37,926 bases of DNA, from NCBI GenBank assembly GCA_016937945.1, contig JAFGVP010000149.1:1-37926 (forward strand), in the 5' to 3' direction. Positions 29,343 through 34,177 of this stretch are shown in pieces (position 1 is the first letter of the stretch; the number at the start of each line of letters is the position of its first letter). The translations under genes and the position numbers were made by a program. Below the pieces are notes generated by a model. The model was not told the origin of the DNA. It saw only the letters and a program-made list of their open reading frames with translations, and searched no databases. The stretch comes from Pontiellaceae bacterium (GTDB lineage: Bacteria; Verrucomicrobiota; Kiritimatiellia; Kiritimatiellales; Pontiellaceae).

Positions 29343-30350
29343 TTACCCCCTGGGTTTTGCTTTGATCAACACATCATCGCCGAGCTGTTCGACGCTTGTG
29401 AACATTAAATTGGTAACATTAGCCATATTGCCGCCGATTTTCCCGAAATTCGGCAGGCCGTCGGCCCCCATCAGCTTGGGCGCCACAAAAAAGGCGTATT
29501 CATCCACTAATCCCGCCGCCACCAGCCCGGCCGCCAGTTTTCCGCCGCCCTCGCACAACACATGCATGACATCGTGGTTTTCGGCCAGATCGCGCAGTGC
29601 CGCGGCAAGGTTCCCGCGGTACAACAACGTTCGCTCGGCGGCCTCATCGTTCAGCACCCTGGAGCCGGACGGAATGCTATCACCGATCACCACACGAAAC
29701 GGCATCCGTCCTTCATCGGGCCGCGGCAGCAGTGACGGATCATCCGCCCGAATCGTGCCGGCGCCGACCATGATCGCATCCGAGCGCCGGCGCATCTGCT
29801 GCACCCGCTCGCGCGCGGCGGTGCCGGTAATCCATTTTGAATCGCCGTTCCGATCCGCAATCCGGCCATCGAGCGTACTGGCAAGCTTCAGCGTGACATA
29901 CGGCATACCGGTCGTGATAAATTTTTCAAAGGGAGCAATCAGCTCGCGGCCATCGGCCTCGCAAACGCCGGAAACCACCTCAACGCCGGCCTCTGCCAGC
30001 AGATCAAGTCCTCGTCCGGCATGCTTCGGATTCAGATCCTTTACGGAAACCACAACACGGCCGATTCCTTTTTCAAGAATAATATCCGTACACGGCGGCG
30101 TGCGGCCGTGGGTGGAACACGGCTCCAGCGTCACATACAGCGTCGCATTTTTCAGACAGGCGGAAATCGGCGGAAGCTTCTTTAAACAATCACGCTCTGC
30201 ATGGTCTTCCCCGGCCTTATGATGCCAGCCTTCGGCGACAATATGATTCTCTACCACCAGCACGGCGCCCACCGGCGGATTCGGACGGGTCAGCCCCTCG
30301 CCCATCTTCGCCAGCGCAATCGCCCGCAGCATAAATTTTTCGTCTGGCAT
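29343..30350 (-). CDS. ribD: Bifunctional pyrimidine deaminase/reductase RibD
   Basis: RibD carries out the second and third steps from GTP toward riboflavin. The N-terminal deaminase domain has the zinc motif GEDHAERDC and EPCSTHGRTPPCTD; the C-terminal reductase domain has LKLASTLDGRIA, WITGTAARERVQ and EGGGKLAAGL. The frame can be extended to a GTG at 30371, but that codon lies inside the inverted repeat of the neighbouring element and has no Shine-Dalgarno. ATG 30350 gives the usual N-terminus (MPDEKFMLRAIALA). The gene begins only 5 nt from the GxxExxY element, so that element or read-through from ftsY must supply its upstream signals. Confidence 0.95.
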   Translation of the reverse strand: MPDEKFMLRAIALAKMGEGLTRPNPPVGAVLVVENHIVAEGWHHKAGEDHAERDCLKKLPPISACLKNATLYVTLEPCSTHGRTPPCTDIILEKGIGRVVVSVKDLNPKHAGRGLDLLAEAGVEVVSGVCEADGRELIAPFEKFITTGMPYVTLKLASTLDGRIADRNGDSKWITGTAARERVQQMRRRSDAIMVGAGTIRADDPSLLPRPDEGRMPFRVVIGDSIPSGSRVLNDEAAERTLLYRGNLAAALRDLAENHDVMHVLCEGGGKLAAGLVAAGLVDEYAFFVAPKLMGADGLPNFGKIGGNMANVTNLMFTSVEQLGDDVLIKAKPRG

Positions 30351-30355
30351 CTTAG

Positions 30356-30386
30356 GATCCACAGATTTCACGGATTACCCGGATTA
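30356..30386 (+). repeat. Left terminal inverted repeat of the GxxExxY cassette
   Basis: It starts GATCCACAGATTTCACGGAT and ends CCGGATTA. The last three bases are the complement of the TAA stop of the GxxExxY gene. Confidence 0.85.
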
Positions 30387-30749
30387 GTTTACAAAGCGTT
30401 TAAATTCGAGGCGCTTGCTTCCAAAATTTAAAAGCAAGGCTCTCTTCATGCATGAAGCCTTTAGATAATTAATGACCTGACTATCCTCAACACCGGATAG
30501 TTGGGCAAGAGCCTTCAATTCCACAATGATTTCATCAAACCAAATGAAATCAGCCCGATAAAAACAATCCAGTTGTTCACCTGCATAATAAACAGGCAAC
30601 TCAACTTCCCGATGGAAGGGAATCCCTTTTTTTTCAATCTCTATAGCCAATGCACATTGATAAACATGCTCAAGAAATCCACAGCCAAGCTCACGATGAA
30701 CCTTCATCGCCGCACCGATAATCGACTGAGTCTGATCATCCTTAATCAT
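30384..30749 (-). CDS. GxxExxY protein, PDDEXK-nuclease-like
   Basis: The 121-residue protein has the signature G24-x-x-E27-x-x-Y30 in HRELGCGFLEHVYQ. It also has an endonuclease-like core: D67 in FYRADFIW, then E77-x-K79 in IIVELKA. This is the layout of the GxxExxY family, which is grouped with PDDEXK_3 nucleases; its biological role is not established. The frame is open upstream to 30878 inside ftsY, but ATG 30749 is the natural start, since AAGGA lies 3 nt upstream and the family begins here. Both ends of the gene fall in the cassette's inverted repeats. It is transcribed with the rib operon. The protein might act on the repeats that flank it, but that is inference. Confidence 0.9.
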   Translation of the reverse strand: MIKDDQTQSIIGAAMKVHRELGCGFLEHVYQCALAIEIEKKGIPFHREVELPVYYAGEQLDCFYRADFIWFDEIIVELKALAQLSGVEDSQVINYLKASCMKRALLLNFGSKRLEFKRFVN

Positions 30750-30779
30750 AATCCTTGTAATCCGTGAAATCTGTGGATC
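30749..30779 (-). repeat. Right terminal inverted repeat of the GxxExxY cassette
   Basis: Read on the minus strand it starts GATCCACAGATTTCACGGAT and ends AAGGATTA, then runs into the ATG. It differs from the left arm only where AA replaces CC, which turns CCGGA into the Shine-Dalgarno-like AAGGA. Confidence 0.85.
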
Positions 30780-30780
30780 G

Positions 30781-31659
30781 TTATTCCTCTCCCAAAAGCG
30801 CACCGATAAATTCACCGGAATCAAACGGCACCAGGTCGTCTTCGCCTTCGCCGAGGCCGGAGAATAGAATGGGGACATTCAGCTCGGACTTCACGGAAAA
30901 GAGGAAGCCGGCCTTGGAAGATCCGTCAAGCTTCGTAACGACAATGCCGGTCAGCGGCACCACGGAGTTAAACTGCTTGGCCTGAATGATCGCGTTCTGG
31001 CCCAGAGAGGCATCCAGCACCATCCATACATCATGAGGTGCGCCTTCGAGCCGTTTGTTCATGGCTCGGCACATTTTGGGAAGTTCGTCCATCAGCGGAG
31101 TTTTCGTGTGCATCCGGCCGGCGGTATCAACCAGCACCACATCACACTGCTTTTCCATGGCCGTATGAACGGCATTAAAGGCGACGCCGGCGGCATCGTG
31201 CCCCATCTCCCCGCCCACAAAATCGCAGCCGACCTTTTCGCTCCAGAGTTTGAGCTGCGAAGAGCCGGCAGCGCGAAACGTGTCGGATCCGCACAGCATC
31301 GGCTTCAGTCCGTTGTTCTTGGCCAATCGGGCCAGCTTGGCCGAGGTCGTGGTTTTTCCGGAACCGTTTACGCCGAGGAGCATGACCACATACGGCTTTT
31401 TATCCGTCGGCCAGCTGAAGGTACGTGACTCGCCCAACGCGTCAACCAGCAGGTTGCGCAAACGCTCCTTGCGGGTAGTCCGACGGGAACCGGACTCCAG
31501 TTCATCGACGATTTCCATCGTCAGCCGGGCCGGCACATCGGAGCGAAGCAGGATTTCCTCCAGCTCTTCTGCATCCAGATCCTCCACATCCGTCGAACCT
31601 GAAAATACCGTGCGGAGAATCGACCGGGTTTTGGAGAGTGCGCCGAACCAACCCGCCAT
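30781..31659 (-). CDS. ftsY: Signal recognition particle receptor FtsY
   Basis: FtsY is the membrane-associated GTPase that receives SRP-bound ribosomes for co-translational protein targeting. The N domain (about residues 1-85) is followed by the G domain with GVNGSGKTTT (G1), DTFRAAGSSQLKLW, DTAGRMHTK (G3), TKLDGSSKAG (G4) and the closing GLGEGEDDLVPFD. The usual DTFRAAAxEQL reads DTFRAAGSSQL here. At 292 residues it has essentially the NG core without the long acidic A region of E. coli FtsY. Its start shares one base with the nusB stop (TAATG). Confidence 0.96.
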   Translation of the reverse strand: MAGWFGALSKTRSILRTVFSGSTDVEDLDAEELEEILLRSDVPARLTMEIVDELESGSRRTTRKERLRNLLVDALGESRTFSWPTDKKPYVVMLLGVNGSGKTTTSAKLARLAKNNGLKPMLCGSDTFRAAGSSQLKLWSEKVGCDFVGGEMGHDAAGVAFNAVHTAMEKQCDVVLVDTAGRMHTKTPLMDELPKMCRAMNKRLEGAPHDVWMVLDASLGQNAIIQAKQFNSVVPLTGIVVTKLDGSSKAGFLFSVKSELNVPILFSGLGEGEDDLVPFDSGEFIGALLGEE

Positions 31660-34023: not shown

Positions 34024-34170
34024 TATTTACGCGCAAAGCTTTACCTTTCGGCATCTTCTCCCATCCAGACTGTACTGTCGGTTGCAGAATCTCACTGCAT
34101 CGTGTCGCTTTTTATCGAAGCAACTCGCGGACTATAACCGCCGGTCGGGAATTTCACCCTGCCCTGAAGA
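34015..34170 (-). promoter_or_regulatory. FMN riboswitch (RFN element)
   Basis: Read on the minus strand, the element has the hallmark blocks in order: TCTTCAGGGCAGGGTGAAAT, TTCCCGACCGGCGG, GTCCGCGAG, CCGACAGTACAGTCTGGATG, GGGAGAAGATG and the closing CCCTGAAGA. P1 is a perfect 9-bp pairing of 34162-34170 with 34015-34023. It senses FMN and controls ribBA and the genes below it. Its location 40 nt upstream of ribBA and its pathway context agree. Confidence 0.95.
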
Positions 34171-34177
34171 TCGGAAG

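Follow-up and report, generated by a model that had tools for sequence, protein, structure and literature searches.

Comparison of a GxxExxY gene from a 37,926-nt stretch of Pontiellaceae DNA (contig JAFGVP010000149.1, assembly GCA_016937945.1; the whole stretch is referred to as the window) with its relatives showed, at the level of sequence, that the inverted arms and the gene make up a single unit, some 450 bp long, which occurs at unrelated sites in different genomes. Its one gene occupies the loop between the two halves of an imperfect palindrome, and we consider it fairly probable that the unit represents a minimal selfish element, the nuclease of which recognises the arms around it.

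The inverted-repeat search of 1401 bases reported a single inverted repeat, namely the arm pair of the window element, with 94% complementarity, 29 of 31 positions identical and the outer 23 bp perfect (Table 1). Its local score of 26 compares with at most 11 for shuffled flanks from the same genome. The start codon of the gene (ATG, 30749-30747) begins with the final base of one arm and its TAA stop (30386-30384) is located within the other, while inspection by eye revealed a Shine-Dalgarno-like AAGGA stretch in the word CAAGGAT upstream of the ATG at 30749. These results confirm, by repeat search and direct reading, the inverted arms and fitted gene described in an initial annotation of this DNA, and its view of a compact unit without transposase is likewise supported, as the sole gene within the 424 bp scored as PDDEXK_3 only in a Pfam scan, without a DDE or other transposase. 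The same scan of the element gave neither a Y1 HUH transposase nor a PF05635 (S23p/IVP) match, and an Rfam scan of the element returned no match at E 1. Each single arm of the window element formed no hairpin beyond shuffles (z = −0.94 and 0.51). The surrounding same-strand gene run is headed by a riboswitch and includes, by our own reading, nusB, ribH and ribBA.

Table 1 Features of the window element and its neighbours (feature, position in the window, strand, remarks)
Whole element	30356..30779	.	424 bp; also at this site in G024 and G025; G027 keeps a deleted remnant
Arm, 3' side of gene	30356..30386	+	31 nt; contains the stop codon of the gene
Words of 3'-side arm	CACAGAT 30360-30366, CACGGAT 30369-30375, CCCGGAT 30378-30384	+	
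Arm, 5' side of gene	30749..30779	-	31 nt
Words of 5'-side arm	CACAGAT 30775-30769, CACGGAT 30766-30760, CAAGGAT 30757-30751	-	
GxxExxY / PDDEXK_3 gene	30384..30749	-	121 aa, predicted nuclease; E27, D67, E77-x-K79, Q91, Y95
ftsY	30781..31659	-	stop codon 1 nt from the element (direct reading)
ribD	29343..30350	-	begins 5 nt past the element (direct reading); start set at ATG 30350 by likeness to relatives, mechanical ORF list: GTG at 30371, inside the arm
FMN riboswitch	34049-34175		heads the riboflavin-nusB-ftsY gene run

The encoded protein belongs to the GxxExxY family (PF13366, E 5e-39; TIGR04256, E 1e-41), with scores well above the cut-offs of TIGR04256 and PF13366 (141.8 bits vs 35 and 133.7 vs 22, respectively). 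Its structure model, built from 55 sequences with a pLDDT of 93.9, adopts a PD-(D/E)XK fold, for which the best solved Foldseek match was Cas4 SSO0001 (E 7e-5, TM 0.62). Exonucleases were also matched, and tRNA splicing endonucleases were found among the weak matches, while a sequence search of solved structures yielded one weak match (E 0.59). Neither alignment examined shows any variation at E27, Y30, D67 and E77. For K79, Q91 and Y95 this holds in one alignment, with conservation of at least 90% in the other, K79 being invariant among the 55 sequences; in the GxxExxY protein of locus L017, E replaces K79. The residue set E, D, ExK and QxxxY is RecB/Cas4-like. With core fold and catalytic residues present, the window protein is a predicted PD-(D/E)XK nuclease.

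The window organism is congeneric with genome G021, whose locus L020 is identical to locus L179 of Pontiella sulfatireligans. Phage records gave no match to the window protein, the L020 protein was matched in 8 of 72,556 plasmid records, and viral contigs, in a search reaching close relatives only, gave no confirmed match to the L020 protein. On these searches, phage or plasmid cargo was rejected. Distant viral kin exist by fold, two viral proteins matching the model well (TM 0.84 and 0.79, with 27% and 26% identity).

Arms are a family-wide property of GxxExxY genes (PF13366/TIGR04256). Taking a local inverted-repeat score of at least 12 as a pass, 65 of the 73 scorable loci from the own genome and its relatives carried arms (own genome 5/6, relatives 23/27, further relatives' loci 37/40), compared with 0 to 1.3% of shuffled flanks, depending on the set. 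The five passing genes of the own genome have differing arm sequences; the score of the remaining one (L016) is 10, a value also attained by shuffled flanks. Among named loci from many phyla, 60 of 75 scorable ones passed (shuffled 1.3%), a count based on score, in which some passes have a long palindrome as the best alignment. The passing loci belong to Kiritimatiellota, Verrucomicrobiota, Planctomycetota, Bacteroidota, Proteobacteria, Acidobacteriota, Armatimonadota, Chloroflexota and others. Five of these named loci (L179, L187, L189, L193 and L203) duplicate other loci and are still counted in the arm, autocorrelation, word-fit, motif, placement and word-protein sets, and loci that were too short were left out (3/30 of the first GxxExxY list, 3/30 IVP, 7/30 GIY-YIG, 3/30 FtsY/Ffh and 5/80 named loci).

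With flanks taken at match edges, control genes rarely passed (FtsY/Ffh 0/27, GIY-YIG 2/23), though such flanks fall partly inside longer genes (Ffh, UvrC). Taking flanks at ORF ends avoids this and gave 0/27 for FtsY/Ffh, 0/21 for GIY-YIG and 19/31 for the first GxxExxY list, the last value being reduced because open frames often extend past the arms. When flanks of different loci were mispaired, 10-13% passed in the own/relatives and named sets, as unrelated loci have words in common. Inverted repeats were also found at 22 of 27 scorable loci of IVP/S23p four-helix genes (PF05635, L119-L148). In the open-licence PMC texts searched, we found no link of GxxExxY genes to repeats.

The typical arm is composed of three 7-mers of the form C-R-C-N-R-A-K, spaced 8-10 bp. 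Three words per arm with at least 32 of 42 letters agreeing were obtained for 85 of 113 elements, compared with 1 of 60 shuffled ones; the 113 were retained from 125, those with arms longer than 60 nt or lacking a fit of three plus three words being lost. Autocorrelation of the GxxExxY arms, from which L024, L030, L041 and L043 were also left out, shows maxima at offsets of 8, 9 and 10 nt (z = 14-18). A further maximum at 2 nt (z = 18) comes from the CAC and GAG steps. For the IVP four-helix genes, the arm maxima lie at 7 and 14 (z = 17-21). Across the 79 elements with a unit score of at least 34, agreement per word position amounted to 0.92, 0.89, 0.94, 0.78, 0.96, 0.97 and 0.95. Letter 4 of the word is free. 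The commonest words in this set were CACNGAG (21), CGCNAAG (17) and CGCNGAG (6), followed by CACNGAT, CACNAAA and CACNAAT with 5 each. In L034, L079, L026 and L352, which are of the CACNGAG and CACNGAT types, letter 4 of the outermost word seems, by eye, to be swapped for an insert of 10-20 nt, often with CCGCTTCGCT, and in L100, L181, L225, L242 and L246 the arm words run in the opposite orientation (e.g. ATCTGCG, read from outside in).

Comparison of same-place pairs, defined by likeness of both flanks (46 pairs, 37 usable), revealed changes at 69 of 1332 fixed letters (5.2%), compared with 84 of 222 at letter 4 (38%) and 47 of 194 in spacers (24%). The words had been picked for likeness within an element, with the same scoring for each of the seven columns. 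Restricting the comparison to one pair for each of the 9 positional groups gave 18/324 (5.6%) for fixed letters and 14/54 (26%) for letter 4. Protein likeness and motif likeness were correlated among the 79 elements (Mantel r = 0.43, reached by 0 of 2000 permutations). The letter-4 control gave r = 0.16, which was likewise reached by 0 of 2000 permutations; as letter 4 weakly tracks the protein, part of the co-divergence is shared descent of the whole element. Among pairs with unlike flanks, the share with identical words rose with protein identity, from 0.7% (30-40% identity) through 11% (40-50%), 32% (50-60%) and 57% (60-70%) to 58% (12 pairs, above 70%), compared with a permuted mean of 13%. 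As read from these alignments, the fixed six letters are shown to be held over time and to differ by protein clade, which is what would be expected under one of the two options named in the initial annotation, a protein acting on the repeats that flank its gene. In the simplest reading, the words are putative binding sites of the element's own protein, arranged as direct arrays at both ends. Association of single residues with the motif, calculated without descent correction, yielded protein residue 7 as a lead only.

Further comparison of close non-orthologous pairs indicated that arms and gene move together as a unit. The L026/L079 pair is 87% alike across 520 bp, approximately from arm edge to arm edge, with unlike surroundings; this pair was judged by permissive BLAST, the alignments of which extended up to about 40 nt beyond an arm, and not by the 40-nt edge comparison. 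In the latter, four pairs (L184/L186, L046/L103, L023/L033 and L025/L033) were 80-90% alike over the 40 nt inside the arm edges and 45-65% alike over the 40 nt outside, where shuffles gave about 50% (p95 57-60%) and one of eight outside stretches exceeded p95. L184 and L186 have a short ATGATTGAT in common outside one arm. From first word to first word, the unit has a length of about 453 bp (IQR 436-489). Direct repeats of at least 4 nt were present at the edges of 17% of 71 elements vs 10% by chance, with no clear target duplication. After removal of repeated loci, the 26 pairs at 80-90% protein identity included 12 with no alike flank and 10 with both flanks alike; for the 52 pairs at 70-80%, these counts were 32 and 19. 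Many close pairs have thus been inherited in place, and movement is therefore rare. Flank likeness also ties CGCNAAG elements of Pontiella relatives (the L042 group) to three Gammaproteobacterial loci (L214, L219 and L223), perhaps reflecting repeated use of one gene pair.

The window copy itself is a long-standing resident. The ftsY-ribD gap was surveyed at 20 FtsY loci, of which 12 were readable with ribD adjoining. Among these 12, the window's element is present in the own genome (G000) and in G024, a different GxxExxY element in G004 and G011 (the G011 copy with an inner stop), a solo palindrome in G021, G017 and G003, and neither of them in G005, G008, G013, G018 and G020, some of which have other short repeats. 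G025 carries the window's element too, and G027 an internally deleted remnant of it. Subtracting the element from the gap leaves about 6 nt, and the element-free G005 has 7 nt there. The window copy is inherited in place in three genomes, with a remnant in a fourth, and is no recent arrival. A search of the 4.28-Mb assembly with an arm-derived 19-mer, allowing at most 2 mismatches, gave 12 matches, against 0 for the control, 2 matches lying at the window element and 10 at 8 other places, on contigs other than the six that bear the PF13366 genes of this genome. At 7 of these 8 places, the match sits within 41-74 nt of self-inverted sequence; at L010, the one exception, the best inverted stretch is not the one with the 19-mer match. 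The initial annotation had named two conditions that would make mobility unlikely, arms confined to this place or a gene present here without repeats in all relatives, and neither applies. Its reading of a minimal mobile or homing-like element is partly supported, by a unit of patchy presence at non-orthologous sites with likeness falling at the arms, but the window copy offers no instance of recent movement.

Solo palindromes bearing the same words were shown, by word searches, to exist and to be denser in the few genomes encoding the matching protein clade. Three-word arrays, counted over 800 kb of G024 and 400 kb of G032, amounted to 13, 28 and 33 per 400 kb, compared with 1, 5 and 12 in the reversed-sequence control. 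Facing array pairs fell into two classes of inner distance, with 10 pairs at 9-23 bp and 5 at 379-449 bp; four of the five gene-sized pairs enclose a listed GxxExxY gene, the fifth (G032, inner distance 449 bp) being without match, and outward pairs numbered 0 in G024 and 3 in G032. Across 58 genomes, a strict array pattern gave 1186 matches (control 43), with a median density of 0.94 per Mb in 9 genomes without the gene and 5.0 in 49 genomes with it. CACNGAT word pairs reached 2.3-10.5 per Mb in the 4 genomes with the window's protein clade, compared with a median of 0.62 and a maximum of 3.0 per Mb in 23 genomes without a clade protein, G027 with its clade protein fragment being set aside. 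G016 contains 17 CACNGAT word pairs and no close clade protein, and G049 contains 24 word arrays and no PF13366 hit, so that either the gene was lost or a different protein reads the words. Approximately seven CGCNGAG solos of G024 (L259-L298) lie, by eye, inside a larger repeat with apparent inverted ends and are not independent. In G006, all 22 listed CACNGAT word pairs carry A at position 4, where letters are mixed elsewhere, and at L352 (G024:C1:3696800-3700000) a GxxExxY gene is located between tandem arrays of a 105-bp repeat with CACNGAT words, of about 4 and 10 copies.

Several alternative explanations have to be weighed against a selfish element. An RNA-level element comparable to the intervening sequences (IVS) of 23S rRNA, whose arms pair in the operon transcript so that RNase III excises the unit or the neighbours are shielded, and whose protein acts on its own RNA with mobility being incidental, appears unlikely to us, yet it accounts for several observations. 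A same-strand ORF stops −10 to 20 nt from the 5' arm at 71 of 117 elements vs 24 of 117 for the opposite-strand counterpart at the 3' arm, in a set that includes same-place elements from several genomes and is thus not independent. IVP genes are placed likewise (13 vs 6 of 22), and Y1 genes gave 0 vs 2 of 14. The tendency of the GxxExxY elements to lie in sense straight after a stop codon speaks for the selfish element as well, and the gene thus probably rides on host operon transcripts. The element's RNA folds with its arms paired (z = −6.1), and in 68 elements analysed in phase, 34 positions deviate from the motif in both arms (28 identically), compared with 3.2 expected. Moreover, the Coxiella IVS is described in PMC4990558 as having a length of 428 nt, a stem of 28 bp and heptamer repeats and as being cut by RNase III. 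However, pairing alone requires neither a threefold 7-mer in each arm nor freedom at letter 4, mirrored words agree in only 71% at letter 4 and 55% in spacers, and the fold is nearest to DNA nucleases, notwithstanding the weak matches to tRNA splicing endonucleases.

Quite improbable in our view is a domesticated host function, in which the protein serves as a regulator of the chromosome or of genes by binding to dispersed palindromes, or uses its own arms as operators, so that the arms are binding sites and not transposition ends. It would agree with the long residence in place, with the fixed letters kept between same-place copies and with the low dN/dS of 0.03-0.30 in four distinct pairs (7 of 119 pairs had a dS under 1.5 and were used, four of them being one pair through repeated loci). 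Arms at both ends, the fall of likeness at the arms in non-orthologous pairs, the patchy presence with several element types at one gap and the retained catalytic residues speak against it. It is very doubtful that the unit is a passive passenger of another host transposase, e.g. a Y1 (RAYT-like) enzyme. Y1 transposases are frequent in the same genomes (51/58), and their genes (L319-L348), which served as a positive control, themselves bear inverted repeats at 20 of 26 scorable loci. Yet 15 of these 20 repeat pairs are of the GTCAG type, the known REPtron/TIRtron kind, GxxExxY words are found by eye in none of the printed pairs, and the arm words track the GxxExxY protein; as its own repeats differ, the Y1 transposase was rejected as the mover. 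Chance, or terminator hairpins around an ordinary gene, retains a negligible probability despite short intergenic palindromes being common, as it was ruled out for the set by shuffles, control genes and the word syntax (85/113).

Under the favoured reading of a selfish element that reads its own arms, the GxxExxY protein would bind the words, probably with several subunits per array, and, as an active PD-(D/E)XK enzyme, would cut or nick the arm DNA, perhaps at an extruded hairpin or at solo palindromes. Host repair or recombination may then copy the unit into the cut place in a homing-like manner, which would leave no fixed target duplication, and the solos could represent gene-less derivatives of this cut-and-copy process, perhaps its recipients. 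As a wider and more tentative proposal, which we put forward as a possibility and not as an expectation, GxxExxY genes would drive widespread minimal selfish elements, in which a small nuclease reads clade-specific C-R-C-N-R-A-K words, three per arm, enters gaps that follow stop codons by means of cutting and host repair, and seeds solos across many phyla, with the S23p intervening sequences being a sister class that reads a 7-bp-period array. The findings give a testable role to a common, motif-named protein family: a recognition word is predicted for every clade, which makes binding and cutting accessible to tests on individual protein-word pairs. In addition, a possible origin is offered for a class of intergenic palindromes, which connects these with the long-standing puzzle of the nature of S23p intervening sequences, whose origin the Discussion of PMC4990558 describes as unclear.

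Among known systems, the S23p intervening sequences and the REPtrons are the closest. Unlike classical transposons with terminal inverted repeats (IS), the window's GxxExxY unit is devoid of a DDE or other transposase. Cas4/RecB-like nucleases are alike in fold, with Cas4 SSO0001 as the best solved match, and the window protein differs from them in its length of 121 aa. Homing endonuclease elements resemble the unit in having a lone nuclease gene without transposase and no clear target duplication, but the GxxExxY arms carry repeated words at both ends without intron or intein, and homing is a proposal only. REPtrons, REPINs and TIRtrons (RAYT and TIRYT; PMC3116915, PMC3733652) likewise combine one gene with matching palindromic repeats and gene-less palindromes in the same genome, and their protein type matches the repeat type. 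They differ in employing an HUH tyrosine transposase in place of a PD-(D/E)XK nuclease, and the single arms of the window lack the own hairpin of REPtron and IS200-IS605 repeats, which also differ in sequence. The 23S rRNA IVS with an S23p/IVP gene (PF05635) is similar in its size of about 430 nt and its one small gene within terminal inverted repeats forming a stem (PMC4990558), and shares the sense placement within a transcript; the 7-bp period of the IVP arms studied here parallels the heptamers published for the Coxiella element. In contrast to the GxxExxY units, S23p/IVP proteins are four-helix bundles and not PD-(D/E)XK folds, IVP arms follow a strict 7-bp period where GxxExxY 7-mers are spaced 8-10, and the window's unit sits between protein genes.
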